The position numbers were made by a program, and so were the translations under genes. From positions 1 to 31,342 of IMG/VR virus record IMGVR_UViG_3300042356_001153: DNA of 31,342 nucleotides. The stretch is one strand, 5' to 3'. The first letter of the stretch is position 1, and every line of letters begins with the position of its first letter. This DNA is from a virus. The notes beneath the pieces were generated by a model. The model searched no databases. It was not told the origin of the DNA and saw nothing but the letters and a program-made list of their open reading frames with translations. This document shows, piece after piece, positions 1 through 23,070 of the stretch.

Positions 1-390
1 TGAGATAGTGTCCGACAAATAACTAAAATCGTCATTTAATAGACTCTCAAAATCCGGTAACTCCCTAAAAATAATATCAGAATCGTGATAAAAATAACAT
101 TTACCTAATTCAGGGTATTCTTTTAACCATTTAGATAAAATTAAAGGTCTTAAAGTCGGGATATATCGTTTATCAATTCGAGTATCTTCATAATGATGAA
201 CATTAACCCCTAATTGTTTTAACATTAAAGATTCTTCACTAGGTTGAGAACCATTTAAAATAACAAACAAAACATGAATTTGATGAGGTTTAACCCCATT
301 ACTAATAAAATTATATATGTAAATTTTAGTTTGCCAATGAAAATACGAAATGTCAGGTTGTGCAGATACAAAAACTAATTCATCAATCAT
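1..390 (-). CDS. Putative GT-A-like glycosyltransferase, 3' end outside window
   Basis: The first 130 codons of a gene that starts with ATG at 390 and runs off the left edge with no stop. The product begins MIDELVFVSAQPD and reaches a hydrophobic-Tyr-His-Asp-Ser-Asp segment (YHDSDIIF) at about residues 101-108. The DSD at 103-105, flanked by hydrophobic residues, looks like the DxD motif that holds the metal and nucleotide-sugar in GT-A glycosyltransferases. A preceding Arg-Pro-x-x-Leu stretch near 81-85 fits the same fold. It is the last visible gene of the tail/adhesin operon, which suggests, by inference only, that it glycosylates a virion protein or host-surface sugar. The acceptor, the donor sugar and the C-terminal half are not visible. 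An unrelated nucleotide-diphospho-sugar transferase fold is the main alternative. Confidence 0.5.
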   Translation of the reverse strand, partial: MIDELVFVSAQPDISYFHWQTKIYIYNFISNGVKPHQIHVLFVILNGSQPSEESLMLKQLGVNVHHYEDTRIDKRYIPTLRPLILSKWLKEYPELGKCYFYHDSDIIFRELPDFESLLNDDFSYLSDTIS

Positions 391-429: not shown

Positions 430-1449
430 TTAAATATCAAACGTTGGAAACGTATCTCCATCAACACATTTTATTAACTGTTTTAATAAACATTGTTGGT
501 GATACATATTTTGCACAAAAGTATTAAAATTAGCTTGTGTAGTATTTGCAAAATTATTTCCAGCATCAACCCAAAAATTCGACACACTTTGAGTTGTTGT
601 TATAAATTGATTATAATACGTATCACATTGAGGACAAGCTTTTGGTGATGTTACACTACCAGTACCCATAAATTGCCAATTTTGACCGTTTAAATCACCT
701 CTCCATACTTTACTAGTTGTTGATGACGATTGAGCAACATTAGTTACATTATATGGTCCTGCACTACCTCTTAGGTTTGATTTTGCTCTAGTTTCAAACC
801 ATTGATATTGACTATCTCTATAAAAGTTAGCTAACCAAGACGATGAGGTTGTTGTTGAACCAGCAATACCACCTTCAACTAAAATTTTAGTATAACGTTT
901 TGCACCACCTATAGTGTCATTGTCTGATTTAACGTAAAGATTTTGTGTACTACCGTCAGTATTAGTTAGTCCAGGTTCTAACCAATTATCGCCAGGATTT
1001 CCACACAAAATTGCCGGTAAAGGTGAATTAGTTGGTGTAGTAACCACATTTCCACGACCACTACCTAACATAATATAACCATTAGTACTTACATAAAGAG
1101 CATTGGATGCTACACCCGCCATTTTATATGTTGTTGATAATCCTATTGGTGTGTCAGTCCAACCATTGTCAAACGTCGAAACAGTTCCATTTGTAAACCC
1201 ACCATAATATGTATCATAATTATCATAATTTGAGGGCCAAACTAAATTTAGACTTGAGTCATATTGATACGTAAATGATGTAGTATTGGAATTTTCATAC
1301 CAATCCGTAACAGCATCTAATAACGCATCTTTAAACGTCATAAATGAAATACCAAAATCCTGCCAACCAAGAGGTTCTCCAAATAAATCTATAGAATCAG
1401 ACCCAATTGCCTGTTTAATACACCAATCTTCTAAATCAAAAAAATACAT
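430..1449 (-). CDS. Probable tail fibre or adhesin-tip protein, 339 aa
   Basis: Not recognised as a named family. The protein is rich in Ser, Thr, Asn, Gly and aromatic residues, as in phage fibre and receptor-binding proteins. Around residues 117-131 it has a segment (LYVSTNGYIMLGSG) of the kind found in nidogen-like and other secreted beta-domains, where a strand is followed by a Ser/Thr-Asn-Gly turn. A Cys-Pro-Gln-Cys pair sits near 271-274 and the C-terminus is helical and Gln/Asn-rich. It follows the SprB-repeat gene after a 23-base gap (1450-1472) holding an A-rich leader. Position at the distal end of the tail operon, next to a glycosyltransferase-like gene, supports a role in host contact. 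This is inference from composition and context; no enzyme motif was seen. Confidence 0.55.
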   Translation of the reverse strand: MYFFDLEDWCIKQAIGSDSIDLFGEPLGWQDFGISFMTFKDALLDAVTDWYENSNTTSFTYQYDSSLNLVWPSNYDNYDTYYGGFTNGTVSTFDNGWTDTPIGLSTTYKMAGVASNALYVSTNGYIMLGSGRGNVVTTPTNSPLPAILCGNPGDNWLEPGLTNTDGSTQNLYVKSDNDTIGGAKRYTKILVEGGIAGSTTTSSSWLANFYRDSQYQWFETRAKSNLRGSAGPYNVTNVAQSSSTTSKVWRGDLNGQNWQFMGTGSVTSPKACPQCDTYYNQFITTTQSVSNFWVDAGNNFANTTQANFNTFVQNMYHQQCLLKQLIKCVDGDTFPTFDI

Positions 1450-1472: not shown

Positions 1473-3617
1473 TTAACTTGTCTCACAAGATATTTCGTAA
1501 TTGATTTTTAATTTAACTAAGATATTAGAATCTAATAAATTAACATCTGAACCACAATCAGATGTGATAGTAATTTTATTGGTGTTTGTATTAATTGTAA
1601 CATTACCAATACCATCATAACCCAACAATAAATTTCTAACAGTAGTTGCAAATAATGTCTCACTTGGTGCGTCCGTTAATGATGTAGTCGTATAAAATAT
1701 TAAACTTTCAGTTACCTCATTAACAATTGTAATTGCTTCAAAAGTAGCTTCATTTAAAATACAATTATTTTCATCAACAGTTAAATCCACATAACCTTCA
1801 TTTAACATTAATATCGGTGTTTTTTCAAGTAATTCACCATTATTCATAAATTCACTATCACATAAATTATAAATACCATAAGTAATTGCACAATTTACAC
1901 CAACTAACACTATAGTCCTAATTTTAATACAACCATTATTATCAGTTACTTTAGCCGTATATGTTCCCGCTGACAAACTTGTTACAAGTAAACCCGTCTG
2001 ACCGTTAACATTATCACTCCATTCTATAGTGTAAGGAGCTTTACCTTTTGTTATAAACAATTGAATATAACCATTATTTGATGAATTCGCATTACCAGAA
2101 TTATAAATGAAATCAACACCCTCTGAACTATTAACTAACACTGTTGAAGACTGAATACAATTTTCACCTGTATCTGTAACATTAACGGTGTAACTACCTG
2201 AAGGTAATGAACTAAATGTTGCGGTAGTTAAATTTGTCTCTATACTCTCACCATTCAATTCATACACATATGGGCCTGAACCACCAACAACATTAATTTT
2301 TACAATACCATCATTTTTAGAACAAGTTGTACCCGTTACTACAAAAGTAAATGTGAATACTTCTTCATTTAATATTTCATATTGATTAACATATTGACAT
2401 CCACTACCGTCCGTAATTGAAAAAGTGTATGTATCGGAAGCCAATTGTGTAAAAGTGTATGTTGGTAGTGTCGTACTAATTGAATTCTCAACACCCGTTG
2501 TGTTAACTAACTTGTACACATATGGTGGTGTTCCTGATGAAATATTAACATTTAATGTCCCTTGATTATTACCACACGATGAATTAGTTGTAGTTATTGA
2601 CACAATATTAAATGATGATGGTGTGATTAACGCAACACTACTAATAAACGAACATAATCCAGCATCCTGAACAAAATAATTAAAGTTACCAGCACCCAAT
2701 CCATTAAAACTAATTGTCCTATCAAAAGTTACTGAGGTAGTACCGTTTGAACCCGAATAGAAAAATGGTGGAGTTCCACCTGAAAGTATTATTTCAATTG
2801 ACCCATTATTACCAAAACAAGATGGTTGAGTCACAAAAAGACCCGCTTGTCCAACTAACGGAACTTTTAACACATCCGCAGTTTTAACAACAACACAACC
2901 TGAATTGTCACTAACAGTTACACTATAAGACCCCTGAGTTAAACCACTTATTGACGATGTTGTTTTACCATTCGACCATAAATAAGTGTAAGGTGGTGAA
3001 CCATTAATATTATTAATAAAAATTTTACCCGAATTAACGTTACAACCGGCATCATTAACAACATACAAATCATAATCTAAATTTGTCGAATCTTGGATAA
3101 TAACACTATTTGTTGTTGCAGTACAACCACCATTATCAACAACTTTCATATAATACGTTCCGGCACTTAACCCTTGAAATGAACGTCCTGACACTAAATT
3201 CGTTGTTCCCGATGTAATATAACCTAAAGTTGTGTGATATAGATAATATAAATTACTACCATAATCATATTGCGTGTAAGCACTTAGTGAACCATTGTTT
3301 AAATCACAAACAGTGTTAGTCACACCTGTTATTGTTGTACATAACCCACTTGACACATAAATTGACGCTATCTGACTTTGATTTTCAGGGTCAATACAAC
3401 TATCTTTAATTAAAAATGAGTACGTTCCAGCGGTTAAAGATGTTGCAGTGTACGCTGTAACTCCCGGTCCTAAAAAAACAGTACTTAAAGGTGGATTTAC
3501 CCACTCAATTCTATAATCAGGAGCACTTCCTGTAATTGTAATACTGAACGAACCACCACTAATATTACTACAGTCACCTGTTACACCAACAAGACTATAA
3601 TTTAAACTACAACTCAT
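1473..3617 (-). CDS. SprB-repeat virion protein (putative tail adhesin), 714 aa
   Basis: The protein is built from seven divergent units of about 75-85 residues, at roughly 10-88, 93-176, 181-252, 258-333, 336-416, 421-497 and 500-573, then a distinct C-terminal domain (about 576-714). Each unit follows the SprB-repeat pattern: a Cys or polar residue, Asn-x-Gly, a Gly-x-Pro-Pro-Tyr turn, Trp/Tyr-Ser-x-Gly, Leu-x-x-Gly-x-Tyr, and a closing Thr/Val-Asp-x-x-Gly-Cys. Unit 3 (GSPPYTYLWSNG, LTQGSYSVTVSDNSGC) is the clearest. SprB repeats are known from the gliding adhesin of Flavobacterium and other Bacteroidota surface proteins. There is no signal peptide and no type IX secretion C-terminal domain that I can see, so it is likely a virion part rather than a secreted host protein. 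Its ATG overlaps the upstream stop in TAATG. Length and position suggest a fibre or adhesin; the receptor is unknown. Confidence 0.75.
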   Translation of the reverse strand: MSCSLNYSLVGVTGDCSNISGGSFSITITGSAPDYRIEWVNPPLSTVFLGPGVTAYTATSLTAGTYSFLIKDSCIDPENQSQIASIYVSSGLCTTITGVTNTVCDLNNGSLSAYTQYDYGSNLYYLYHTTLGYITSGTTNLVSGRSFQGLSAGTYYMKVVDNGGCTATTNSVIIQDSTNLDYDLYVVNDAGCNVNSGKIFINNINGSPPYTYLWSNGKTTSSISGLTQGSYSVTVSDNSGCVVVKTADVLKVPLVGQAGLFVTQPSCFGNNGSIEIILSGGTPPFFYSGSNGTTSVTFDRTISFNGLGAGNFNYFVQDAGLCSFISSVALITPSSFNIVSITTTNSSCGNNQGTLNVNISSGTPPYVYKLVNTTGVENSISTTLPTYTFTQLASDTYTFSITDGSGCQYVNQYEILNEEVFTFTFVVTGTTCSKNDGIVKINVVGGSGPYVYELNGESIETNLTTATFSSLPSGSYTVNVTDTGENCIQSSTVLVNSSEGVDFIYNSGNANSSNNGYIQLFITKGKAPYTIEWSDNVNGQTGLLVTSLSAGTYTAKVTDNNGCIKIRTIVLVGVNCAITYGIYNLCDSEFMNNGELLEKTPILMLNEGYVDLTVDENNCILNEATFEAITIVNEVTESLIFYTTTSLTDAPSETLFATTVRNLLLGYDGIGNVTINTNTNKITITSDCGSDVNLLDSNILVKLKINYEISCETS

Positions 3618-6600
3618 TAATTACAACATAAATTTAAATTTATTCCAACATTAATTTTAAAATTCAACCCCTGACTGTTTTCAGAACATATTGAATTATA
3701 TATAATTACCTTACCATCATTAGTTAATGTATAACTATATCCATCACTCTCTAAATCATCTAAGGCAACAACTAAAGCGTTATACCATTGAGTATTAGTT
3801 GGTGAACTAAACGCCAATACGTTATAACCAGAACCATTAAAAAACTTATTTTGTATTATAATAGAGTCATTTAATCGTAAGTCAACATACCATTCAGTTT
3901 GAAGTGCGTTTAAATTACAATTATCAGCCGTTTTATCAATTGAGGTTAAATAATCATTAATCACTTTACCTAAAACACCTGAAAACGTCGTAATAGTATT
4001 ACTTGTTCCTGATGGATATATAGAACACTCAACACTTTGGATAGGACAATCTATCGGTAAAAAGTTACTAACGGTAGCACAAGGTTTACAAGGTACTGGC
4101 ACTATTATACAACCTCTTTGTCTTCTCCAAGCATGTTTTTGTCTATGAAAAACTGAATTTTCGTATTTAACACCTGTTGTCCATATTGTTGTTGCCGGTA
4201 TCATTTGTTCAACTAACCTAATCCAATAATCACCTAAACCATTTACATATTGTATCATTGTATCATATGTAAAATTATTATTGGTTACCCCAATTGCCTT
4301 CTCAGATAGTAAATATTTCCAATAAATCGACTCTAAAGTTGGATAACCCATTGATTTACCGTTAGTCATATATTGTCTATTTCTAACGTTAATCATATTT
4401 TTCCAAAATGATTGAGCAAATTCAAAAAACGTTTGTCTTTTTGGTTTTGGGTCGATTTCAGTCCAATCAACACCACCCTTCATTGGATATTGAACATTAG
4501 GAAATGACGATTGAAATTGAGTATTACTCATTTTCATATTATTGGTTGAGTATGGCGTTGGATTACAATGTGTCGGAGCAATGTAGAATAACCCCTCATT
4601 CGGTATAGGATAATTCACCTCTCTTGACATATACCACACGTCATAAACCAAACCTTGAGCCGGATTCATATGTAAATCAATATTCTTAACATTTAAAACT
4701 AATTTTTCATCGTCAACAATATATTTTGAGTTGTAACCCCCATCTAAATTAGCTCTAGTACCAACTTCGTTGATTACCCAACTTTTATTATTATCAATAG
4801 TTTTAGTTAAATTATACCCTAATGACATAAAAGGAAATCTTCTAAATCTATCAAGATAAACTTGACCGTAAGTATAAGGAATTAATGAAGTTTGATAGTC
4901 AGGATTTGACCCAACAAAAGTATTACTTGTTCTCTTAATATCTTCCGGAGCTCTATGAGCCGGTGTTTGTTCAAACCATCCACTACCAATTTGGAAATAA
5001 TAACTTTCACTATCATCAGGAGCTATCGGATAACCATAGTCATCCATCGGAAATTCATTTCTCGTTAATGACACGTCTTTTATCGAAAATTCTGTGGTAA
5101 CACCTGTATATGTAACACCTTGAAATGTGAACACGTCATTAGCATCTAACACAATTTTTTGTTCAACATAAGTACCACCTGAAATTTGAGCAAATTGTGA
5201 ATTAAATTGACGTAAATTAATTGGTCTATCAACTAAATAAACATGTTCGTTAAATTCAACTAAAGCATCAGGAGCACCAATCAATCTCATTAAAGTCTCA
5301 ACGGATTTACGAGTACCTTTTGATTTAAACAAATAAGCAGAATTTAATATTAAATTTCTGAAATATTGATAATTTAACTCATCAGGTGTTAACGCGGTTT
5401 TAACTCCCGAAAATTGAGATTTATCTTGATTTTTTTCACCAAATACTGACTTTAAAAAATCCTCTTTAGTAATTGGGGATATATTAGTATTCCAACCTAA
5501 TGTTTGGGCTAAATTTTTAAGTAATTGTGAAGGTATATCATTACCCACATTATAATTAACTGAATTCATATACGCCAAAGCGTCTATGAATTTTTTAGTT
5601 TCATCAAAACTTCTACCGTATATCTGTAAAGTCTTTTCAGTTTTTTGCCCTATGGTATCAAACTCTTTAAATGAACCCGTAGTTAAAAACCTTGATATTA
5701 AATTTGTTTTATACCCGTCAATATTTTCAACAACATCATTTAGTTGTGTCAAATATAAATTAAAAGAACCTGTCATAATATCAATATTCCAAGTTCCATT
5801 TAAAGGCCAAGTCAATTTTTGTTTTGTTGAGATATAAGTACCATCGTCATTTTCAACAGGAACAGTAAAATTACTAGTGTATATTGGAGTACTCTGTCTA
5901 TTCAATAAAAATTTCTCAACCTCATCAAAATTTTCATTAAAAACTTTACTAACCTCATAATCGTTAGGTCTAATAACTATATTCTGAAATACCTCAGTAT
6001 TATCACCAAATGGTTTACCACTTACCGAAACAGTTAACGTTCCGGTTGTTAATGAGTTTGTTGGTTGGATAAAGATAATATCACAAACTTCATTTTGGTA
6101 ATACATCAAATATTTACTATATTCAACAGTTAAATTCCTTAATGGTGATACAGGTATTTCTCTTAACTCTAAGTTTCTAGTCGACTCATTTGTAAAATCA
6201 ATATCAAACTGATTTCGTATTCTTGTAATATCTAAATCAAATGTGGTAGTATTGTTTAACTTATTATAAACTATGTTACTAGCCGTTTTACCTGTAACAT
6301 AATTAACCCCCACAAATGTTGACTCAATTGCTGCTGGGAAATAACTTATTATTTTTTGAACTGATACCGAAATTCTTTTAGTTAAAGAACCATACATCGT
6401 AAAGTTAGTAACTTGACTTAAATCAAAATTTGGATATACCTTGAAGTTGGCTTCAAATACTTGTTTTGATTGTGCAATATCACTTAAACCTAAATTAGTT
6501 AGATTTATTGGTTCAGAAAATGTTCCCGTAATAAAATTACGGTTTCTCTTTTCTGTAATTGATGTTACAAAATTAAAATTCCCCTGTGTTAATCCACCAC

Positions 6601-6691
6601 CCTGAACTAATTGGAATCCAACTAAATCGTCAGAGAATGTACCAGCTCCTGAAGCTGGTGTTGGGGGACAAGTATATTTTTTAATCGCCAT
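3617..6691 (-). CDS. Large baseplate/tail structural protein with gpI-like motif, 1024 aa
   Basis: A long structural protein without enzyme motifs. At about residues 450-477 it has a Phe-Lys-Ser-Lys-Gly-Thr-Arg-Lys segment followed by an amphipathic helix ending in Gly-Ala-Pro. This resembles the Lys/Arg-Gly-Thr signature of phage P2 gpI, the type VI secretion protein TssG and related baseplate wedge proteins, whose T4 counterpart is gp7 (about 1030 aa). Residues about 858-890 contain a cysteine cluster (CIIVPVPCKPC, then two more Cys), which could bind metal or form disulfides. The gene lies within the operon led by gp25 and gp6 homologues, and is coupled by TAATG overlaps to both neighbours (302-aa gene upstream, SprB-repeat gene downstream). 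A gp7-like or adaptor role connecting the baseplate to the adhesins is plausible but unproven. Confidence 0.55.
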   Translation of the reverse strand: MAIKKYTCPPTPASGAGTFSDDLVGFQLVQGGGLTQGNFNFVTSITEKRNRNFITGTFSEPINLTNLGLSDIAQSKQVFEANFKVYPNFDLSQVTNFTMYGSLTKRISVSVQKIISYFPAAIESTFVGVNYVTGKTASNIVYNKLNNTTTFDLDITRIRNQFDIDFTNESTRNLELREIPVSPLRNLTVEYSKYLMYYQNEVCDIIFIQPTNSLTTGTLTVSVSGKPFGDNTEVFQNIVIRPNDYEVSKVFNENFDEVEKFLLNRQSTPIYTSNFTVPVENDDGTYISTKQKLTWPLNGTWNIDIMTGSFNLYLTQLNDVVENIDGYKTNLISRFLTTGSFKEFDTIGQKTEKTLQIYGRSFDETKKFIDALAYMNSVNYNVGNDIPSQLLKNLAQTLGWNTNISPITKEDFLKSVFGEKNQDKSQFSGVKTALTPDELNYQYFRNLILNSAYLFKSKGTRKSVETLMRLIGAPDALVEFNEHVYLVDRPINLRQFNSQFAQISGGTYVEQKIVLDANDVFTFQGVTYTGVTTEFSIKDVSLTRNEFPMDDYGYPIAPDDSESYYFQIGSGWFEQTPAHRAPEDIKRTSNTFVGSNPDYQTSLIPYTYGQVYLDRFRRFPFMSLGYNLTKTIDNNKSWVINEVGTRANLDGGYNSKYIVDDEKLVLNVKNIDLHMNPAQGLVYDVWYMSREVNYPIPNEGLFYIAPTHCNPTPYSTNNMKMSNTQFQSSFPNVQYPMKGGVDWTEIDPKPKRQTFFEFAQSFWKNMINVRNRQYMTNGKSMGYPTLESIYWKYLLSEKAIGVTNNNFTYDTMIQYVNGLGDYWIRLVEQMIPATTIWTTGVKYENSVFHRQKHAWRRQRGCIIVPVPCKPCATVSNFLPIDCPIQSVECSIYPSGTSNTITTFSGVLGKVINDYLTSIDKTADNCNLNALQTEWYVDLRLNDSIIIQNKFFNGSGYNVLAFSSPTNTQWYNALVVALDDLESDGYSYTLTNDGKVIIYNSICSENSQGLNFKINVGINLNLCCN

Positions 6692-7638: not shown

Positions 7639-8883
7639 TTATTGGATTTCATTAACTTTAAAAAACCCATAACCGTATTTTTCAAGGTCACCCACATTAT
7701 CCACCTCGCCAATTCTCATTAAAGCTTCAAGACCTGATTGTTTACCTCTTTCGATAAATATATCCGACTGTGTTACGGGTTCATCAATAACGTTAAGTAA
7801 TAACTCATTTTTTGTTATTCCTGAACAAACTATCATATCTGACGTTACACCTGAAGATTCAACAACAAAAATCGTTGTCCCATCAAAGAAGTCATAATAA
7901 TCAATATCATTAATTGTGTATGCAGTGTACACACCACCATTTACTACACCCAAAGGACCAACATATGATGGATTGTCTGATGGACCCCAAAAAGTACCAA
8001 TGGTATTTGTGTCAGCAGTTATTTGAATACCCATTTTGAATCTACCGTCATATAACGATGGATTAAATTTACTACCATAGACTTCCAAATCATTTATTGT
8101 CGAATTAGTATACCCTGTTACTAAAAATGGTACGTTTGTAAAATTTCCGCTAGTCTGTAATTCGACATCACACACCGAATCACCACTGAATATATAATCA
8201 TAACTCAACGATGTTGCCGACCAACTACCACCTGCGGGTATAAAATGAGCAACACCTTTAGGATTTGTTATTGTCACCACACTGTATGGTACTGTTACAT
8301 CTTTCTTAACTAAATTTACACCCCAAGGACTCATACCTGACATAGTAATAGTGAATTCACCTTGTTGGGTATATGTATGTGAATAGTTATTAGGTAGAAC
8401 ATTATTAACAGTCATTTGAGGTGAACCATCCCCCCAATCTATTTTATATTCAGAAAATGATAAATATTTTTTAAATTCAGTGTCTGAGGTGTTATAGAAA
8501 TAATACGTGTTGGGGTTTGTGGTTGTTGAAGAAAAGATAAAATTAGTCATCGTTTCTTGTTGCAACACCATCCCATCAAAAACGGTATAAATACCAATAT
8601 CAGTTGTATTTTCAGTGATGAAAATAGGTATTGTTAGACCCGTTAAAATTGAATTGTACTGTTTTGTATTTGTATTGAAACTACCTCCTGACAAAATTTG
8701 AGTCATTGATGAATAAGCATACGTTTGACCACTAAAATATTTAGTCACCGCACTTGTGTAAATGTCACAACAATAAACGTATTCGGCATTTGTTGTATCA
8801 CTATTACCCGTATAATTCACTAAGAATAAATCATTCTTAATGACTTCAGGGGATATTTTATAATGAAATATTCTTTCTTCCAT
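7639..8883 (-). CDS. PKD-domain virion protein, 414 aa
   Basis: Residues about 144-199 form a recognisable PKD (polycystic kidney disease) immunoglobulin-like domain. It has the Trp-Gly-Asp-Gly-Ser core (150-154) and the later strand with Tyr-Ser-His-Thr-Tyr and Gly-Glu-Phe-Thr-Ile-Thr. PKD domains are common extracellular modules in Bacteroidota and also occur in phage tail proteins, where they act as spacers or carbohydrate-binding units. The flanking regions are beta-rich, with many Thr, Gly and Tyr and no enzyme motif. It starts 2 bases after the stop of the 275-aa gene, so it sits inside one transcript with the baseplate genes. A structural or adhesive role is inferred; the PKD call is fairly secure, the function is not. 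Confidence 0.6.
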   Translation of the reverse strand: MEERIFHYKISPEVIKNDLFLVNYTGNSDTTNAEYVYCCDIYTSAVTKYFSGQTYAYSSMTQILSGGSFNTNTKQYNSILTGLTIPIFITENTTDIGIYTVFDGMVLQQETMTNFIFSSTTTNPNTYYFYNTSDTEFKKYLSFSEYKIDWGDGSPQMTVNNVLPNNYSHTYTQQGEFTITMSGMSPWGVNLVKKDVTVPYSVVTITNPKGVAHFIPAGGSWSATSLSYDYIFSGDSVCDVELQTSGNFTNVPFLVTGYTNSTINDLEVYGSKFNPSLYDGRFKMGIQITADTNTIGTFWGPSDNPSYVGPLGVVNGGVYTAYTINDIDYYDFFDGTTIFVVESSGVTSDMIVCSGITKNELLLNVIDEPVTQSDIFIERGKQSGLEALMRIGEVDNVGDLEKYGYGFFKVNEIQ

Positions 8884-11450: not shown

Positions 11451-14400
11451 TTAATCTGTAAATATGTCACTATCTATCCATTTTCTAGTAAATCTATCAA
11501 ACGCAGATTTACCTTGTGTTAATCCAAAATAAAAATAGAACGGTGCTCCTGTGTTAATTACTCTCTCAGAATATGGCACATTATCACCTGGTGAGTTTGT
11601 ATCCCAATATAATGTGTCAGCATTTTGGACAGGTGGCGTCGAACCATCTACAGAATAAATATTACCTCTATAGTATTTTGTAATCGTACTACCTTTAGTT
11701 CTAAAGTATCTTGAACTTCTTAATAACCTATCAAGGTTCTGATAACCGTAACTAAAGAATGTTGTTGCCGAAAAAGGTTCAGTATGCCATTCATTTAATT
11801 GATTACCAAAAATACTATCAGGTTTATAAGGACCAAATAATGCTGATGGGTTTGGGTCTTCACCATCTGAATTAGGGTTAAAATTTTTCTTAATATACCA
11901 CTGATAATATGGAACAACTTGTGTTTTAACATTAAAATATTCAAATGCACAATTTGCATTATTAATTGTACTTTCATCAGTAATAATAGTTCGTTTAGGT
12001 GTAATATAATCCCTAATTTGTGTGTTAGATGAGAAATACACACCAATAATCGCATCATTAGAATTAGCACCATTATAAAAGACATCGGTACAACTATTAT
12101 AATTCTCATCACTAAAACCAATAGTTCCTAACTCAGAGTTAATACTGTTCATTTGAGCATAATCACCATCAATTTTCAAATTTTCACGACTAAAGTAGGT
12201 TAGAATTTGACCAACACCCAAAATACCCAATATCTTATCTAACGAACTCTTATTTATCAATCTCGAAATTATGAAAGTATTTAACAAATCACTCACATCT
12301 TTAAATGTTGTCGTATCTAAGTTTTTCATAACGTACCCGTCATAATCATTTGAAAAAACAATCTCTTGAGTGTAAATGTCTCTAGGACCTAAATCCGTGA
12401 TAGTAGTCGGAAACATTAAATTTTTCTGATTACCCCCAAAACTTTTATTTGTAAACCAATTTTTTGGACTTTGACGACCAATAAATGTTTTATCGGTTGA
12501 ATTATACGGACTACTTCTATAATAGAAATTATTAGATTCAGTGTTAAAATAAACCATATTTTTACAAAAACAATTATATGGTTTATTCCTCAACTTAGGA
12601 TTAGGTTCAGTCGGACTTGTGAATCGTCGTGAATTAACGAATGAAAACGAGTACAATGTACCATTTATCCAATTATTTGTAAAATAATGTGAGAAAACAT
12701 TTCGACAAGCCCCAAATGTAATCACCATTCTTGCCCTCCATTCAGTTAATAACTTATAATCAAAAATTAACGTTTCAAATGGTACTGTACACGTTATATA
12801 ACAACCTTGATTAAATATCTCTTCAGGTTGTGGTACACCAAATCTAGCGTTAGTTCCTTTAGGAATTCTATTACCCCAACAAGAACCAGGTCCTGATTGT
12901 GGTATTGGTTGTGTTTTATCACGAGGGTAATATGTGAAATTATTATTTTGATTAACATAATAACAATCTAAAGGTATCATACCTTCACAATTAAACGTAC
13001 CTAAGATATCCGCACAAGCTCCTGTTTCAGCGTTAGCCGCTTTTGAATCACCCGCACCACCAACACCTGAAACTGAGTTAACACCCCCATTTTGAATAAC
13101 ACCCCCGTCATCAGTTATTGTAAAATATGTGAAGTTATTGTTAGACATTAAAGTATAACTTAGTTCTCTAAGTGCCGGATTTTCATTAAGTTCCTCTACC
13201 GATGATGATGGTAATCTATCTGACCTCATAACCATTCGAGCATCACCATTACTTAAATTAATATTAACTTCAGGTAATGGTACTTGATTCTTAATAGCAA
13301 CACTATTATATGTCATACTAATGAACCAACTAGCTTGTGTCCAACCACGACCTGTTTCTAATAATGAAATTAATCGTCGATAATATGTTAGTTGTACGTT
13401 TTGTCCTGGAAACCAATTTGGATAACAACAAACCGGAAATCCAGCAATAGTACACGCCGGAATACAATCACCATTCTCATAAGTTATATAGAAAAAATTG
13501 TTGTCTCGTTGACTTATATTAAGTGATGCTAAATTACCCCCTTCAATAATCTCATTTGGGTAATAACCCCTATTATTATTAGTTCCAGGAACATTAGGGT
13601 ACAACCAAATCATTTTATTACCCCAACCTCTAAACCAAGGTGCTAAACCATTATCTTGATTGTTATAATCAGGTTGTACATCAATATAACCACCTAAAGC
13701 ATTACCTTCAGGACCACCCCAATTCACATTACCATTATAGTTAATTCTAAGACCTTTACCTGTTGAGGTTGCTGAATTTTGAGTACCTTTACCATAATTA
13801 TTAAAACAATTATCAGCCATACTTTCATCCAACATTGAATAATAGGTGTGTGCCGTCGTTGAGAATGGTCTAAAACACGCATAATCAGCCGGTCGATAAA
13901 ATGGGTCTCTTCCCGGTGGATTATATGGTTGACAATTTATTGGGTCACCATTAGCATCATAAGTACAAGTTGTCGGGTCATCTTGAGGACCAATTGCCAA
14001 ACTAGTTAACGCTGGTTTCCACATAAAAGTTGAGTGAAACAAATATTGATTACTGTACGTATCTATAAGATTATTGTCAGTGATTGTATGTTTAACACAT
14101 CTAATACCACCTTGAACCGGAATGTTCATTCTCATTTTATCCAATGTAACAATTTTCTTACCCCAATCCTTTTGACTATATAATTTACTCAAATCATACG
14201 AAATTGTCGTTTTTGGTGAATTAGGGTCAACACCTCTAACAAAAAACACAACCCTTAAACTATCTGATTTATCAATATAACCCCTAATATATGGTTTTGG
14301 TGGCGGAGCACTATAAGTTGCATGATAATGTTGTATATCACTAAGACCATGCGGCATATTTATACTCAACAGACTAGGAGTTACTTGTACTCTTTGAGTT

Positions 14401-17210
14401 GAAACAATTGAGTAATTAGCGTTAATAACTCTTTCATAAAACGAATCCGGTAAATTAGAACCTAATGCAGTTACCGCATCAACATAATCTTTTACTGAGA
14501 CATTCTCAATTACTTGAAGATACTCCAAGTCCATCGCAAATTTATGATAACTGTCTTCTGAACCACCGGTAATAGTATATACAGTTTGTAAATTCACACC
14601 TTGACCATTAGAAACTTCACCTTGATTCGGGTCAGCGTATGTTACAGTAACCTGTGCAACATTAATTTTTTTACTACCATTATATGGGACACCAATAGTT
14701 TTACCTGTAATACTATTAGTTCCTAAATCATTAGATGGTAAGACATTTGATAAATTAACATCTTTAGTTTTTGATGGGTCAACAGTTGTTAACATACCCC
14801 CAATTGGGAAATTTGAACTTTCAGTAGAATCAACTAATACCGCAATGACATTATCTAAATGGTATGACCCATTAAATTGATTATTACTAACAGTTAAAGG
14901 ACCACCATTCATATCAGCATTAAATCTAACACCAATTTGATTCACACCACCACCAGGATTATCCGAAGTTTGATTAAAATATTTAGCTTTAACATTAAAC
15001 AAATTGAATCGTTCATGCCAAGGTAAATCTGTTGATTGTAATATTTTTTGGTCATTACCATAATTAAAAATACCCATACTTGGTGCTACACCTTTGTCAT
15101 TGTCTTTACCATTAGTCGGTAAACCTGTTATAAAATAAACATCATTACTTGCATATGGTGTAAAGGCACCTGGAGTATCAGGGATAGGATAAGGTCTTTT
15201 TGAAAACGCCCCGTCTATTACAAGGTCAGCATTAGGTGAGTTACCTTCTTCAACAGGGTCATTAGGGTCAGGTGGTACTGTTTTAGGTGCCGCTGGGTCA
15301 CAAACACATAATTCACAATCAGGAAAAGTCATATTAGGTAATGGTAAATAGGTATCTTTACATTTCCCTTCAATTGATTTCTCTCTATCCGTAAAATTAT
15401 TACACTTATCTCCCGCAAAACGTTTAAATGGATACCAACTTATCGCAGTAATAGAAAACCCCCTATCTTTTAACCAACACCAAAAAGACTTTAATGCACT
15501 TACAATTGGTAGAATAATATTACATAAAACCCAAAGATATAAATGATATACAAAAATAACAAGAAATAAAATAACATAAGCAATAATCATTAATATTTGG
15601 AATAGAATGTAAATAATATCAATCCTAAACATCGCATCATTTGACGGAAACTTATTATTTGTCGATTCACAAGTATCGTCAAGAATGTTTTTAATCGCAA
15701 TAATTCTGTTATTCGAATCACCTTTACGATATTCACTAATTAATTGAGATATTGTATATACTTTATTATATCTCATTTCATAGAATCTATCTTGACAATT
15801 GATAGCTTCTAATATCATTTCATCACCTAATGTAGTTACAGTACCATTATTAGATTTTTCACCATAATCATCCCAATCTAAACTAAACGCATATGATGCT
15901 TTAGCTGCACGACCATTATCTGTTGTTGGAACTGTACTACCATAATCACAAGGGTTGTCAAACCTACCAAAATTAGCCCTACTACCCGTCATTTTACCCG
16001 TTAACGGGTCAATACCGGATGATGTTGTCCATCCATACTCTTTAATATTTGGAACTAAATAATTTGCTCGTTTAACTCTTGCACCTAAATCTGTTGATTG
16101 ATTCCACATCACCTTAAATCTATATTTACCTTTAGTCGGTATACCTTTTTTAGGGTCATTAGAAATAACTTGTTCACCAAACTCATTAGTTACGACATAA
16201 TCCAAATTCATTGGTACGTCAAACATCCAAGTACCATTATCATCAATTACTTGACCACCCTCTTCCAATTCAGCTACCTCTAACGAAGGTCTTCCTTTCG
16301 AATCCATTTTTATAGTTTGTCTAATCGCCTGTATTTGACCAGGCCCTGTAATTAAACTACATAAACTACCGGATTTTAACGTTGGTTTACAATTTCTTTT
16401 TAATGCAAGGTCTTCGTCTGTTGATATTAACGACCCCATAAAAATAGCCGTTGGTCGTATTGTTATATTTTTTTCAGCTGACAAATCAAAATCGGTTCTT
16501 GTAATACCCACCTCACAAACATTTTCATCACCCCAAAATGGTTCAACCGCAATATTCCTATTAATAGTAATAATTTGAGGTAATTCATTTAAATTGCTCG
16601 ATGATTTAAATTTAGTACCATCAACTTGTTGTGGTGTTGCAACACCCATTCGTATCATATCTTGAGGTGACAATGAAAACTCACCAATATCTGATAAGTC
16701 AATATTAACAACAACTGTTTGGACCCCAAGAGGTACTCCCAATATCATATAATCACCACTTTCATTTGTAACTGAATTATACTTATAATATTTGTCGTAA
16801 ATTTCTATTTTAGTTGGATTAGTTAGAACATCTTGTCGTGTAAAAAAAGACCCTGTTGGTACGTGATTACTGTATGATGGTTCTGTTGGTAATAAATTAT
16901 AAAGGAATCCATCACCATTTAACTTTGTTAAATTTTTATAAGGATACAAATCCGCAATTATCGGATTATTAATTTCGTCATCATCTGATAATGGGACGAA
17001 CACTGAAACTTTAGCGTTTGGAACACCAAACCCATTATTAATACTTACTCTACCAATTATGACACCATAATCTGAGCATCTCCTGTTATACACATCACTT
17101 TGAAGGACCTTTATAGATAATACTTCAAGTGATTCGAAATCTTGGTCTAACTTAACTCTAATTGATTTATCGACACCAACCGTTGTTCTTATTCTGTATG
17201 AATTTGACAT
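11451..17210 (-). CDS. Giant baseplate/tail protein with internal hydrophobic segment, 1919 aa
   Basis: The largest gene of the window. Residues about 48-172 look like a carboxypeptidase-regulatory-like beta-sandwich: Gly-Arg-Val, then Val-Pro-Asn-Ala-Lys-Val-Ser-Val-Phe, then Thr-Asn-Glu-Ser-Gly-Asp-Tyr-x-Ile-x-Gly-Val-Pro. Residues about 530-572 form an almost uninterrupted hydrophobic stretch (Ile, Leu, Phe, Val, Tyr), long enough for one or two membrane helices, followed by Trp-rich Phe-Trp-Cys-Trp-Leu. A cysteine cluster (two single Cys, then CELCVC) follows at about 603-637. The remainder is Asn/Gly/Tyr-rich with many Cys, as in a long fibre-like or sheet protein. It directly follows the gp6 homologue, the position of gp7 in T4. 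It is preceded by a 71-base leader with an inverted repeat and the TATTTAT motif. Virion location is inferred; no enzyme domain seen. Confidence 0.6.
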   Translation of the reverse strand: MSNSYRIRTTVGVDKSIRVKLDQDFESLEVLSIKVLQSDVYNRRCSDYGVIIGRVSINNGFGVPNAKVSVFVPLSDDDEINNPIIADLYPYKNLTKLNGDGFLYNLLPTEPSYSNHVPTGSFFTRQDVLTNPTKIEIYDKYYKYNSVTNESGDYMILGVPLGVQTVVVNIDLSDIGEFSLSPQDMIRMGVATPQQVDGTKFKSSSNLNELPQIITINRNIAVEPFWGDENVCEVGITRTDFDLSAEKNITIRPTAIFMGSLISTDEDLALKRNCKPTLKSGSLCSLITGPGQIQAIRQTIKMDSKGRPSLEVAELEEGGQVIDDNGTWMFDVPMNLDYVVTNEFGEQVISNDPKKGIPTKGKYRFKVMWNQSTDLGARVKRANYLVPNIKEYGWTTSSGIDPLTGKMTGSRANFGRFDNPCDYGSTVPTTDNGRAAKASYAFSLDWDDYGEKSNNGTVTTLGDEMILEAINCQDRFYEMRYNKVYTISQLISEYRKGDSNNRIIAIKNILDDTCESTNNKFPSNDAMFRIDIIYILFQILMIIAYVILFLVIFVYHLYLWVLCNIILPIVSALKSFWCWLKDRGFSITAISWYPFKRFAGDKCNNFTDREKSIEGKCKDTYLPLPNMTFPDCELCVCDPAAPKTVPPDPNDPVEEGNSPNADLVIDGAFSKRPYPIPDTPGAFTPYASNDVYFITGLPTNGKDNDKGVAPSMGIFNYGNDQKILQSTDLPWHERFNLFNVKAKYFNQTSDNPGGGVNQIGVRFNADMNGGPLTVSNNQFNGSYHLDNVIAVLVDSTESSNFPIGGMLTTVDPSKTKDVNLSNVLPSNDLGTNSITGKTIGVPYNGSKKINVAQVTVTYADPNQGEVSNGQGVNLQTVYTITGGSEDSYHKFAMDLEYLQVIENVSVKDYVDAVTALGSNLPDSFYERVINANYSIVSTQRVQVTPSLLSINMPHGLSDIQHYHATYSAPPPKPYIRGYIDKSDSLRVVFFVRGVDPNSPKTTISYDLSKLYSQKDWGKKIVTLDKMRMNIPVQGGIRCVKHTITDNNLIDTYSNQYLFHSTFMWKPALTSLAIGPQDDPTTCTYDANGDPINCQPYNPPGRDPFYRPADYACFRPFSTTAHTYYSMLDESMADNCFNNYGKGTQNSATSTGKGLRINYNGNVNWGGPEGNALGGYIDVQPDYNNQDNGLAPWFRGWGNKMIWLYPNVPGTNNNRGYYPNEIIEGGNLASLNISQRDNNFFYITYENGDCIPACTIAGFPVCCYPNWFPGQNVQLTYYRRLISLLETGRGWTQASWFISMTYNSVAIKNQVPLPEVNINLSNGDARMVMRSDRLPSSSVEELNENPALRELSYTLMSNNNFTYFTITDDGGVIQNGGVNSVSGVGGAGDSKAANAETGACADILGTFNCEGMIPLDCYYVNQNNNFTYYPRDKTQPIPQSGPGSCWGNRIPKGTNARFGVPQPEEIFNQGCYITCTVPFETLIFDYKLLTEWRARMVITFGACRNVFSHYFTNNWINGTLYSFSFVNSRRFTSPTEPNPKLRNKPYNCFCKNMVYFNTESNNFYYRSSPYNSTDKTFIGRQSPKNWFTNKSFGGNQKNLMFPTTITDLGPRDIYTQEIVFSNDYDGYVMKNLDTTTFKDVSDLLNTFIISRLINKSSLDKILGILGVGQILTYFSRENLKIDGDYAQMNSINSELGTIGFSDENYNSCTDVFYNGANSNDAIIGVYFSSNTQIRDYITPKRTIITDESTINNANCAFEYFNVKTQVVPYYQWYIKKNFNPNSDGEDPNPSALFGPYKPDSIFGNQLNEWHTEPFSATTFFSYGYQNLDRLLRSSRYFRTKGSTITKYYRGNIYSVDGSTPPVQNADTLYWDTNSPGDNVPYSERVINTGAPFYFYFGLTQGKSAFDRFTRKWIDSDIFTD

Positions 17211-19121: not shown

Positions 19122-19580
19122 TTATAAATTTATAATAACAAAATCACTTGAGTTGAACGCGTCATCGTTTAACAAGTAATCAATTTTAATTTTTGCAGTG
19201 TGTTCTTTTGTCCCGATACCTGGCACTCTAAAAACTCGTTCATCATTACCATTAACAAACGTTCCTTTATCTTCCTCACCCTCTGACGCTGGTGTTACCT
19301 CTAATTTAGTAATTGTAATACCGGGAATATATTCTTTAACAGAATCCCTAATTTCAGATTCTATTTGTGAAAAAGTTGGTCCATCTAATGGTTCAAATAA
19401 ATACTCATATAATCTTGTCCCAAAATCAGGTAAATAATATCTAGTACCTTTTCTCGTTAGTAATAAATGAATTAGATTTGAACGTATTTCTTCCCTATTC
19501 GTGTTTGATAAATCAAGATATTTACCATCATACGAATCCCTAAAGGGAAAATTAATACCATATGTTAATCCTTCTGCCAT
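19122..19580 (-). CDS. 25: Baseplate wedge protein, T4 gp25 / GPW family
   Basis: A 152-aa member of the gp25/TssE family (T4 gp25 is 132 aa). Residues about 43-66 hold the diagnostic core, with Arg-Lys-Gly-Thr, Pro-Asp-Phe-Gly and Tyr-Glu-Tyr-Leu-Phe-Glu-Pro. The N-terminal Gly-Ile-Asn-Phe-Pro-Phe and Asn-Arg-Glu-Glu-Ile-Arg-x-Asn-Leu segments also fit. gp25 sits in the inner baseplate where the sheath attaches and starts contraction. The frame is open further upstream to 19646, but that extension would run into the terminator hairpin at 19631-19660 and gives an unlikely N-terminus, so the ATG at 19580 (MAEGLTYG) is chosen. It is the first gene of the baseplate/tail operon, and its leader carries TATTTAT at 19586-19592. 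Confidence 0.9.
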   Translation of the reverse strand: MAEGLTYGINFPFRDSYDGKYLDLSNTNREEIRSNLIHLLLTRKGTRYYLPDFGTRLYEYLFEPLDGPTFSQIESEIRDSVKEYIPGITITKLEVTPASEGEEDKGTFVNGNDERVFRVPGIGTKEHTAKIKIDYLLNDDAFNSSDFVIINL

Positions 19581-19630
19581 ATAACATAAATATAATGTCG
19601 TTATGAATTTTTTGTATAACGTTCTAAAAT

Positions 19631-19660
19631 AAAAAACTCTCGACATTGCCGAGAGTTTTT
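19631..19660 (-). terminator. Rho-independent terminator after nrdA
   Basis: The stem CTCTCG/CGAGAG (19637-19642 with 19650-19655) is extended by A5/T5 pairs to 11 bp around a 7-base loop. On the minus strand it is followed by a run of T. It lies 17 bases past the nrdA stop and separates the replication/nucleotide operon from the gp25-led baseplate operon. Its A-rich other flank could let it act in both directions, but no plus-strand gene exists here. Confidence 0.85.
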
Positions 19661-19676
19661 ATGATTTACGGTTTTT

Positions 19677-22091
19677 TTAAGATGAACACCCAAAACATTC
19701 AAATTCTGAATCTTGAGGTTTTTGTGGTATCACATCAACTGTTGGTTTTTCTTTTACAGGTTTTTCTCTTTTCGAGATATCCACCGCTAAGTGTTTAGCC
19801 CCCGTCGAAATCGCTTTAGTTCGGATATAGTAACTTAATGTTTTTAATCCTCTCTCCCAACCGTGAAAGTGAGATGAGGTAATTTTTGACAACGTTGGGT
19901 TACTCATATAGATGTTCATTGATTGAGATTGGTCAATATAAGGAGCTCTGTCAGCTGCCATATCAATCAATTCTCTTTGTGAAATCTCCCAAATCGTTTT
20001 ATATTTAGACATTAAGTGTTCTATTCGTTTAACTTTCTTGTTGTAATTTTTGTCCTCAACATCAAGATAATGATTGAAATTAACGTTCTGAATTGAACCT
20101 TCATTTAGTATGATATCATTTTTCAAATCCTCAGACCAAATCCCTAATTTTTCAAAATCTTGTATTAAGTATTTATTTACTATCAAAATCTCACCACCTA
20201 CAACTCGTCTGTTAAACAACGCCGAATGAGCGGGTTCTGTCATTTCAAATGAACCTGTAATTTTTGCTGAAGACGCAACAGGCATTTGAGCCGTGAATAA
20301 TGAATTACATACACCATATTTCATTACCCTTTCTTTTAATGAAGTCCAATCCCACATTCCTGATAAATCATCCTCAGTCATTCCCCACATATCAAATTGG
20401 AATTCTCCTTTTGACATTGGCGAACCTTTGAAGTATTCATAAGGTGAGTATTTTTCTTCAATACATAATTGATTACTCTCAGTGATTGCGGCAAAGTAGA
20501 TAGTTTCGAAAATTTGTTTGTTTAATTTTCTCGCCTCCTCAGATGTGAATACGTAATCTAATAAATAAAATACGTCAGCCAATCCTTGAACTCCAATAGC
20601 AATAGCTCTTTGTTCTAAACCACCTTTTCTACCCTTCTCAGTTGAGTAACTATTAATGTTAATTACTTTGTTTAAAGTTCTTGTAACCTTTCTTACCTCA
20701 TCAAACAATAGTTTAAAATCAAATTTACCTTCAACGATAAAGTTTTTCAATACCATTGATGATAACGTACAAATAGCCGTAGTTTCTTCATCAGTATATT
20801 GGAAAATCTCCGCACATAAGTTAGATTGATGTATAACCCCAATGTTTTGGTGGTTAGTTTTTCTATTAGCATTATCTTTAGAACATAAGTAAGGAACACC
20901 TGTTTCAATTTGAGACTCAATAATCTTAGTCCAAATTTCAGTTGCACTTACTTTTTTACCAAGACCTAACTCAACCGCTTTCACATAAGTTTCTTCATAC
21001 TCAGAACCGTAAGACTCTTGTAAAGGTTTTAATCCCGCCTTCTTAATATCATTAGGACAGAACAAATACCAATCAGAATTATTTCTAACCGCTTTCATAA
21101 AGTTATCAGGAATCCACAATGCCGTAAACAAGTCTCTAGCTCTCAATTCATCTTTACCTGTATTCTTTTTAATATCCAATAAATCAAAGATATCTTTATG
21201 CCAAGGTTCGATGTAGATAGCTGCACTACCAGGTCTTCTACCTTGTTGATTAAAGAATCTTAATGATTCGTTAACAATTTTAAGATACTTTAATAATCCA
21301 CCCGCAAAACCACCTGATGTAGTAATACGACTTTCTTTACTTCTTTGGTTTGACATACATAATCCAATACCCGCAGCGTCCGATGAGTAAGTAGAAATAT
21401 CATTCAATGTACCCAACAAACCTTGTCTTGAATCTGAATTATTATAATGTAATACACAAGACGCTAACTGAGGGATTAATGTCCCTGAGTTAATCATAAT
21501 TGGGGTTGCCTTAGAAATTCTTTGTTCTGACAATGACTTATAATAATCAACCGCCTCTTCGTAACTATCAGTTACCCACAACGCAATTCTCATATACATA
21601 TGTTGTGGTCTTTCAACAACCTTACCATTCGGTAATTTCAACAAATACATTTCTTGTAATGCTTTCCACGCAAAAAAGTCAAAGTTATAATCATTCTCGT
21701 GATTAATAATTGAATCAATCTTACTTGGTCCATATTTCTCGATAATACTCATTAGATTATCGTGAACAACACCTTCAGTGTGTAATGTGTGCATAGTTTC
21801 ACTAAAACTATCAACCGTATCTTTGTGATATGATGAGATAGCAACTGAAGACGCCAATCGTGAATAATCGTGATGACTACCAGTGTATGAGGACGCAATC
21901 TCATACACCAATTTATCTAATTCTTTTGTTGTGATGTAACCCTCAGTTGGTAGAGAAGTTGTCACTTTAATAAAAATCTCATCAAAGTTAACATTAAGAC
22001 CTTTAGCTGCTCTTTTAACTCTGTTGTAAATTTTTTGAGGATTAAATGATTGTTTCTCCCCGTTTCTTTTTTTAATTTTTAATGACATCAT
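19677..22091 (-). CDS. nrdA: Ribonucleoside-diphosphate reductase class I, alpha subunit
   Basis: This 804-aa large subunit reduces ribonucleotides to deoxyribonucleotides for phage DNA synthesis. Residues 1-90 form an ATP-cone (allosteric activity site). The active-site residues are all in place: Cys212 (ASCVL), Asn424-x-Cys426-x-Glu428 (thiyl radical site in SNLCAEI) and Cys441 (AICTLSSMVL), corresponding to E. coli Cys225, Asn437, Cys439, Glu441 and Cys462. A Tyr-Tyr pair near the C-terminus (LSYYIRTKA) matches the radical-transfer tyrosines. The last residues, Glu-Cys-Phe-Gly-Cys-Ser-Ser, give a C-terminal redox pair with CxxC spacing. It follows nrdB after an 18-base gap; two ATGs (22091, 22088) are possible starts. 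The gene order nrdB then nrdA and the terminator immediately after make nrdA the last gene of this operon. Confidence 0.95.
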   Translation of the reverse strand: MMSLKIKKRNGEKQSFNPQKIYNRVKRAAKGLNVNFDEIFIKVTTSLPTEGYITTKELDKLVYEIASSYTGSHHDYSRLASSVAISSYHKDTVDSFSETMHTLHTEGVVHDNLMSIIEKYGPSKIDSIINHENDYNFDFFAWKALQEMYLLKLPNGKVVERPQHMYMRIALWVTDSYEEAVDYYKSLSEQRISKATPIMINSGTLIPQLASCVLHYNNSDSRQGLLGTLNDISTYSSDAAGIGLCMSNQRSKESRITTSGGFAGGLLKYLKIVNESLRFFNQQGRRPGSAAIYIEPWHKDIFDLLDIKKNTGKDELRARDLFTALWIPDNFMKAVRNNSDWYLFCPNDIKKAGLKPLQESYGSEYEETYVKAVELGLGKKVSATEIWTKIIESQIETGVPYLCSKDNANRKTNHQNIGVIHQSNLCAEIFQYTDEETTAICTLSSMVLKNFIVEGKFDFKLLFDEVRKVTRTLNKVININSYSTEKGRKGGLEQRAIAIGVQGLADVFYLLDYVFTSEEARKLNKQIFETIYFAAITESNQLCIEEKYSPYEYFKGSPMSKGEFQFDMWGMTEDDLSGMWDWTSLKERVMKYGVCNSLFTAQMPVASSAKITGSFEMTEPAHSALFNRRVVGGEILIVNKYLIQDFEKLGIWSEDLKNDIILNEGSIQNVNFNHYLDVEDKNYNKKVKRIEHLMSKYKTIWEISQRELIDMAADRAPYIDQSQSMNIYMSNPTLSKITSSHFHGWERGLKTLSYYIRTKAISTGAKHLAVDISKREKPVKEKPTVDVIPQKPQDSEFECFGCSS

Positions 22092-22109
22092 AATGATTAT
22101 AATATTTTA

Positions 22110-23069
22110 TTAAAACTCATCAGTAAAAGAAATTGTTTCATTCAATTTCGCCTTTTGATATTCAAGTGTTCTATTTTCAAAGAAATTACCTTTAGTTTCA
22201 ACCGCAATCTGTTCCATAAACTTGAAAGGTTGTTCTACATTAAATTCTTTACTACAACCTAACTTATATAATAAACCATCAACAACGAACTCTAAATATT
22301 GTTTCATTAAATTAGAATTCATCCCAATTAATGATACTGGTAGTGATTCAGTTATAAACTCCTTTTCAATCTCTAAAGCTGAAAGTAATATTTCTTTAAT
22401 TCTTTTCTCACTTGGTTTGTTAACAATATGGTTATTTAACAAGTGAATTGCGAAATCACAATGAAGATTCTCATCTTTAAAAATTAATGAGTTAGCGTCA
22501 CATAATCCTTGCATAATTCCTCTCGATTTTAACCAAAATATTGAACAGAACGAACCTGAAAAAAAGATTCCTTCAACAGCAACAAACGCTATCAATCGTT
22601 CTTGAAACGATGCGTTTTCAATCCAATCTAAAGCCCATTTAGCTTTTTTCTGAACTGCCGGTAGTCTGTCAATCGCGTGGAAACAATCATCCTTTTCTTT
22701 TGAGTCTGTGATATAAGTATCAATTAATAAAGAATAAGTTAAAGAATGTTCATTCTCCATAGCAACTTGGAATCCATAGAAAAACTTAGCTTCCGGAAAC
22801 TGTACCTCCCTTGCGAAGTTCTCAGCAATGTTTTCATTAACAATACCATCAGATGCTGCAAAAAATGCTAAAATATTTTTAATGAAATATTTTTCATTAT
22901 CTGATAAATTACTCCAATCTCTGATATCATCACTTAAATCAAATTCTTCTGCCGTCCAAAACGCCGCCTTGTGTTGTGCATAAAATTCCCAAATATCGTG
23001 ATATTGGATAGGGAATACTACAAATCTATCAGGATTTGTTTCTAAAATTGGTTCTACTTTATTTTCCAT
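22110..23069 (-). CDS. nrdB: Ribonucleoside-diphosphate reductase class I, beta subunit
   Basis: The small subunit carries the radical-generating di-metal centre. Numbered from the ATG at 23069 (319 aa), the ligands are Asp44, Glu105, His108, Glu166, Glu200 and His203 (motifs EEFD, ENEH, VEG and KDENLH). Tyr112 lies four residues after His108, exactly as the radical Tyr122 of E. coli lies after His118. This points to an active tyrosyl-radical, di-iron type enzyme (class Ia) rather than the tyrosine-less or manganese-only variants. The reading frame is open up to 23186, but that stretch overlaps the helicase gene and reads as a Lys/Asn-rich tail without family features, so it is rejected. ATG 23069 lies one base after the helicase stop; ATG 23081 (overlap 11) is also possible. 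Confidence 0.92.
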
Positions 23070-23070
23070 A

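Follow-up and report, generated by a model that had tools for sequence, protein, structure and literature searches.

The stretch of viral DNA analyzed here (IMG/VR record IMGVR_UViG_3300042356_001153; 31,342 nucleotides, hereafter the window) encodes P0001, a real and conserved phage protein that is most likely a tail arm or fiber with a SprB-type stalk and that belongs with the Ig-like repeat proteins of phage particles. We consider it probable, with good though incomplete confidence, that P0001 is a structural arm or side fiber of a contractile-tailed phage, one that probably infects Bacteroidota. A fixed chain of seven domains, encoded in a run with baseplate genes and mostly ending in a variable tip among its relatives, is probably a virion arm or fiber rather than a copied gliding adhesin. 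In the proposed architecture, a stalk of almost constant length would be built from the seven SprB-type Ig-like units; the C-terminal domain, which is shared with the neighboring protein P0003, would be a probable docking or joining module; and in most relatives this domain would be followed by a tip that differs even among close relatives, as receptor-binding tips do. P0001 itself carries no such tip. The protein and its parts are as follows.

1473–3617, minus strand: P0001, probable SprB-repeat fiber/arm protein, 714 aa, ATG start; seven Ig-like units and a C-terminal domain, without a tip
3342–3617, minus strand: unit 1, residues 1–92, without an SprB stretch of its own
3081–3341, minus strand: unit 2, residues 93–179, without an SprB stretch of its own
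2859–3080, minus strand: unit 3, residues 180–253, with the motif GSPPYTYLWSNG; SprB stretch at 2961–3065, 31.6 bits
2616–2858, minus strand: unit 4, residues 254–334; top-scoring SprB stretch, at 2736–2834, 42.6 bits
2364–2615, minus strand: unit 5, residues 335–418; SprB stretch at 2502–2597, 27.5 bits
2124–2363, minus strand: unit 6, residues 419–498; SprB stretch at 2250–2348, 27.9 bits
1893–2123, minus strand: unit 7, residues 499–575; SprB stretch at 2004–2081, 24.7 bits
1476–1892, minus strand: C-terminal alpha/beta domain of P0001, residues 576–714, homologous to the C-terminus of P0003

P0001 matches the Pfam SprB family (PF13573) with 88.9 bits (E 1.5e-25), well above the curated cut-off of 28, which bears out an earlier note on this DNA that recognized SprB-type units from the letters alone. 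Five stretches are individually significant and coincide with units 3–7; units 1 and 2 have no individual SprB stretch and owe their status to predicted strands and alignment, the same two sources from which we set all unit boundaries. The earlier note had described seven units of 75–85 residues with the pattern GxPPYxYxWSNG: the count of seven holds, but the lengths range from 74 to 92 residues and the exact motif occurs, within P0001, in unit 3 only. Two IMG/VR contigs, 173,656 and 131,650 bases long, hold identical copies of P0001; the only further SprB-like matches (E ≤ 1) in these records were weak ones in downstream frames of 360 and 123 residues. In locus L006, past the low end of the window, ORFs of 122 aa (12230–12598) and 360 aa (12639–13721) gave SprB-like scores of 16.8 and 21.5 bits, both below the cut-off. 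No SprB match above the cut-off was found in 14 control genomes.

The AlphaFold2 model of P0001 (mean pLDDT 83.1, pTM 0.33) has beta strands over residues 1–575, divided into seven beta-sandwich units, and then a low-confidence stretch (575–595) that precedes the alpha/beta domain. As the pTM is low, the placement of one unit relative to the next is not predicted. The top three Foldseek matches in the PDB were structures of Aureispira GhpA (9flp, 9fly, and 9flw; E 1.6e-18 to 1.3e-16, 16–18% identity), with whole-chain TM-scores of just 0.16–0.22, so that a common domain type is indicated and a common assembly is not. In VIA-align, the best GhpA row (Z 10.4) fell below fragments of fibronectin (Z 12.0, rmsd 15.9 over 297) and CD45 (Z 11.0, rmsd 19.2 over 292), and a row for RB49 Hoc reached Z 9.7. 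Judging from the model, the stalk may be described as an Ig/FN3-like chain and nothing more specific.

Turning to the genomic setting, the neighbors of P0001 and the nearest genes with a recognizable tail function are listed below.

1–390, minus strand: beginning of a conserved phage gene (PHROG 4417, no known function)
430–1449, minus strand: P0002, 339 aa, directly downstream of P0001; no Pfam match; a separate tip is one guess
3617–6691, minus strand: P0003, 1024 aa, conserved throughout this group of phages; a probable tail protein, judged solely by its position
3620–4042, minus strand: C-terminal domain of P0003, residues 884–1024, common to P0001
17282–19120, minus strand: Baseplate_J / baseplate wedge protein, gp6-like (family match)
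19122–19646, minus strand: baseplate wedge protein, gp25-like (family match)

The names gp6 and gp25 are those of the two baseplate wedge proteins in T4. P0001 had been placed in a run of baseplate genes, and this is correct insofar as both wedge genes lie in the same minus-strand run; they are, however, about 13.7 kb upstream, and the six genes in between (276–1919 residues, P0003 included) have no confident family. A tail role for these six, P0003 among them, is suggested by position. Beyond the wedge genes, the same run encodes ribonucleotide reductase subunits, a DnaB-like helicase, an exonuclease, a UvsX-like recombinase, and a single-strand binding protein, with both reductase subunits (19677–23186, minus strand) situated between the wedge and replication genes. 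A contractile tail sheath gene (PF04984) was present in all seven related records tested. Within the run, a 414-aa protein (7639–8883, minus strand) has a weak, sub-cut-off PKD-like stretch (E 0.0068) and is possibly another Ig-like structural protein. P0008 (1919 aa; 11451–17210, minus strand) has a hydrophobic stretch at 15471–15620, with a Kyte-Doolittle maximum of 2.99 over 21 residues near residue 531; a stretch exceeding 2.0 also occurs in 26 of the 28 P0008 relatives aligned there, and a membrane-inserting virion protein is possible.

P0003 and P0001 overlap as genes and share a domain as proteins. In the sequence TAATG, the stop codon of P0003 overlaps the start of P0001 by one base. 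HHalign aligned residues 573–714 of P0001 with residues 869–1024 of P0003 (probability 96.9, E 1.6e-10, 21% identity over 92 columns); eight other segments of P0003 served as controls, seven of them scoring no higher than 0.8 and the eighth, which overlaps the domain, 94.9, and the units of P0001 itself scored at most 6.6. A profile of the P0001 C-terminal domain directly recovers P0003 homologues (24 domain rows), and the order of helices and strands is equal in the two domain models, P0003 having an additional strand and a short helix. Adjacent, overlapping genes whose products share a terminal domain are most simply understood as encoding parts of one assembly. P0003 itself is not confidently matched by any PHROG, Pfam family, or PDB sequence, and its identification as a named T4 protein found no support: PHROGs, PDB sequences, and an AlphaFold model (pLDDT 46.8) yielded no solid lead. 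For its C-terminal domain, chains from phage tails, nozzles, sheaths, and baseplates came up at Z 3.7–4.7; these matches say little, since human DNA polymerase eta reached Z 3.7–4.0 on the same stretch.

The conservation of P0001 was assessed in loci collected with P0003 as the query. The best 80 of 126 confirmed relatives were taken, including two (L016 and L058) that represent the window's own phage. Nine loci end inside P0003; the other 71 hold 60 distinct ORFs, 12 of which run off their contig and were omitted, and removal by hand of six near-duplicates (L054, L057, L062, L076, L077, and L080) from the remaining 48 distinct complete ORFs left 42 complete representatives. Start codons of relatives were taken as the first ATG, GTG, or TTG after a stop. 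Among these best 80 of 126 relatives, an ORF starts at or within 12 bases of the end of P0003 in all 71 untruncated loci (60 distinct proteins), the start minus the P0003 end being 0 in 57 loci, -3 in 10, -9 in two, -12 in one, and +4 in one. Every one of the 42 representatives matches SprB (Pfam, E ≤ 0.001); by a crude motif count, the SprB motif is absent or nearly so in the contig-truncated ORFs of L064, L086, L087, and L089. The core aligns along the whole of P0001 in all 42 and measures 709–747 residues in 40 of them, the other two having 802 and 852.

Within the 42 representatives, pairwise identity of the core runs from 31% to about 100% (median 44%), and dN/dS values of 0.06–0.19 for nine pairs indicate purifying selection. 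Units at the same position share a mean identity of 0.43–0.55, against 0.28–0.36 between positions (14 of the 42 proteins compared); because same-position units are the most alike, the array has a set order and is probably old. In units 2–6, a pair of cysteines per unit is kept in 98–100% of members. A scan with the alignment of the 42 confirmed at least 474 stretches, redundancy kept; 79 distinct loci were obtained from it. P0003 gave no tblastn match at E ≤ 1e-5 among 50,697 records of known phages, and no relative of it was confirmed in 84,980 bacterial species genomes, so that, as far as those collections show, the phage group is uncultured; megablast of window positions 1–25000 against known phages likewise returned no match. 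Two unannotated metagenomic records are weakly similar to P0001. The 642-kb metagenomic phage record LR756502.1 contains six places resembling P0001, the best at 515530–516981 (29% identity over 72% of the query).

What follows the core is far less constant. A tip of 96–789 residues extends beyond it in 34 of the 42 representatives; the other eight, P0001 included, stop within 12 residues of the core. Any similarity at all was detected in only 74 of 561 tip pairs. When DNA was compared across the tip boundary in six close pairs, identity fell at the tip in every pair and recovered behind it in three: L061/L067 (89–100% upstream and in the core, 55–59% in the tip, 96–98% in the next 1 kb), L033/L053 (71–91% before, 43–59% in the tip, 71–91% after), and, as a weaker case, L059/L079 (74–93% before, 65–76% in the tip, mostly 75–93% after). 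In L090/L092 (98–100% in the core, 65–86% in the tip, 61–73% after), as in L017/L018 and L016/L017, the fall at the tip was not followed by recovery in the compared stretch. The three pairs with fall and recovery look like the exchange of a tip cassette; in the other three, divergence merely begins at the tip. Tip contents include DUF285/PARCEL repeats, a repeat named in Pfam and NCBIfam after mycoplasma and surface proteins, and a beta-propeller-like domain. DUF285/PARCEL repeats make up most of the tips of L030 (14151–16517; E 3.2e-92) and L051 (14178–16199; E 1.1e-164), and the tip of L053 (14157–15203) has by eye the look of a Hint (hedgehog/intein-type) domain, with no Pfam match at E ≤ 0.001.

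Such variability is the pattern expected of receptor-binding ends, and the variable tip of the relatives, absent from P0001, is the more likely specificity part. A different division of labor would make the Ig-like stalk the main receptor-binding part, contacting glycans or surface proteins of the host directly and leaving the tip an accessory role, which is compatible with a tail arm. For phage Ig-like domains, binding to hosts and carbohydrates is stated in the introduction of PMC6949934, and P0001 and seven other representatives have no tip to bind with; we nevertheless regard a binding stalk as unlikely, as the core is under purifying selection and it is the tip that varies, the reverse of what a specificity part would lead one to expect. 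P0002 was considered as the missing tip of P0001. Full-length relatives of P0002 occur in L017 and L018, two genes downstream with one further gene between, alongside fused tips of 291 and 285 residues; this coexistence weakens the proposal, as P0002 need not replace a tip. In a gene of L056, the parts matching the two ends of P0002 adjoin directly, the middle being absent, and some 320 residues of other sequence come after them.

The assignment to the tail has to be weighed against the nearest PHROGs families, whose labels are 'Hoc-like head decoration' and 'virion structural protein' and whose category is head and packaging. P0001 matches PHROG 2973 ('Hoc-like head decoration') at E 6.1e-12 and PHROG 26672 at E 3.3e-9; among the 42 relatives, PHROG 26672 is matched by 22, PHROG 2973 by five, and PHROG 3945 ('Hoc-like') by four. 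Profiles also matched, weakly (E 1.1e-4 to 8.8e-4), PDB chains that bear the names decoration protein and neck whiskers protein. Together with these matches and the RB49 Hoc row in VIA-align, the labels favor a head decoration or neck appendage, in which a Hoc-like Ig chain on the capsid or neck would weakly bind host surface polymers. We judge this rather unlikely: the gene lies in the strand run of the baseplate wedge genes and in 57 of the 71 loci starts on the stop codon of P0003, with which its product shares a domain, and the relatives end in variable C-terminal tips. A head or neck place would still be compatible with these observations.

The relation of P0001 to cellular SprB proteins bears on whether the protein acts on the particle or on the cell surface. 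No T9SS sorting domain was found in the last 100 residues of any of the 42 phage proteins, P0001 included (E ≤ 0.01), while among cellular SprB-repeat ORFs whose C-terminus is complete, 43 of 64 matched type A and 20 type B, overlap between the types being possible. A whole-length scan did match T9SS type A in 12 of the 42 (E ≤ 0.01, best 2.4e-8), and Pfam Por_Secre_tail was matched over the whole length by six (E ≤ 0.001); in P0001 the type A match sits in unit 7 at 16.9 bits, under the cut-off of 23, and the matches of the other phage proteins are presumably internal, given that none falls in the last 100 residues. In P0001 neither visual inspection nor a crude pattern shows a signal peptide, and the pattern fitted none of the 42 phage proteins against 38 of 63 cellular ORFs; being crude and fitting just 38 of the 63, it is weak evidence. 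The earlier note's observation that P0001 lacks a type IX sorting domain is upheld, as is the phage structural-gene setting, and its conclusion that the protein is assembled in the virion is the best reading.

These results also speak to a phage-made adhesin that the host would export to its surface as a mimic of SprB. The units are of SprB type and their cysteine pattern is akin to the cellular one, the first as well as the later part bearing a cysteine in 89% of the cellular units (n = 1007) and 83% of the phage units (n = 294), and the 12 type A matches of the whole-length scan could be read in its favor. Against these stand the empty C-termini, the lack of signal-peptide patterns, and the adjoining of P0003 in all 71 loci, which were themselves found via P0003, and we hold an exported mimic to be extremely improbable. 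No evidence emerged that P0001 mimics host adhesins or that it engages the gliding machinery, and the data give no support to its being a gliding adhesin itself.

Going by record titles, Bacteroidota account for 78 of the 80 loci with the best cellular matches to unit 3 (80 kept of at least 509 confirmed, several loci sharing a genome), the other two coming from a single bin; records titled by genus or family only were assigned to a phylum by that name. Sequence likeness of this kind suggests a Bacteroidota host. Recent theft of domains from a host adhesin was considered and is unsupported, as the units of P0001 are on average equally close to 1007 cellular units as to one another; the exception is units 5 and 6, which score 124 with each other against a mean of 101 for the best of six random cellular units. 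The cellular loci were chosen with unit 3, and the closeness of unit 3 to them is accordingly biased. The proposal that host modules had recently been turned into a fiber thus finds no backing: the array is ordered and looks old, and neither direction nor date of transfer is supported. Matches to P0002–P0008 at E ≤ 1e-20 were absent from the 80 cellular loci. L237, which has a 74% segment and lies in a Bacteroidota bin, was considered as a possible phage contig and rejected, its genes looking cellular.

Gliding offers a possible biological context. Mutations in gliding genes confer phage resistance in Cellulophaga and related flavobacteria, according to PMC13288928, and phage receptors likely belong to the gliding machinery, according to PMC7345892; if the arm meets this machinery, it would bear on such resistance. 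An SprB-type arm might even recognize moving SprB filaments or their track, with the gliding motor carrying the virion to its injection site. We think this very improbable; if true, the units would resemble the host adhesin in function as well as in structure. More broadly, SprB is a second Bacteroidota-type Ig-like repeat, after BACON, in a conserved phage gene set with many uncultured relatives, often with a variable tip. That tip offers a definite starting point for tracing host range in phages without a cultured member in the collections covered, and the SprB-type arm is a possible marker for Bacteroidota phages.

Among known systems, the SprB gliding adhesin and other cellular SprB proteins share with the phage units the Pfam repeat family and a similar cysteine pattern. 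Cellular SprB proteins mostly end in a T9SS domain and can hold many units (43 in one ORF of 3,635 residues, and many matches in a frame of 13,103 residues), whereas the phage protein has seven units and no T9SS domain. GhpA, from the Aureispira grappling hook, is a cellular appendage protein whose likeness to P0001 is one of domain type. The Hoc-like Ig decoration proteins of T4-like phages are likewise Ig-like chains and have a PHROG label in common with P0001; unlike them, P0001 has a gene setting, a domain common with P0003, and relatives with variable tips that point to the tail. In the parts of the open-licence literature covered by our search, we met no account of a phage protein with SprB repeats; a UniProt entry, A0A6J5LD72, is already named 'SprB repeat [uncultured Caudovirales phage]' and, at 714 residues and 34% identity to P0001 (Foldseek E 5.1e-63), probably represents P0001 in a related phage. 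The nearest published precedent found is the tandem BACON array in tail proteins of crAss-like phages (PMC6949934). The BACON family is absent among the 17 Pfam families matched by our 42 members (E ≤ 0.001). The two arrays have in common tandem Bacteroidota-type Ig-like domains near tail genes and a poorly conserved C-terminus; P0001 differs in its domain family, in having seven divergent units in a fixed order, and in the domain that it shares with the adjacent protein.
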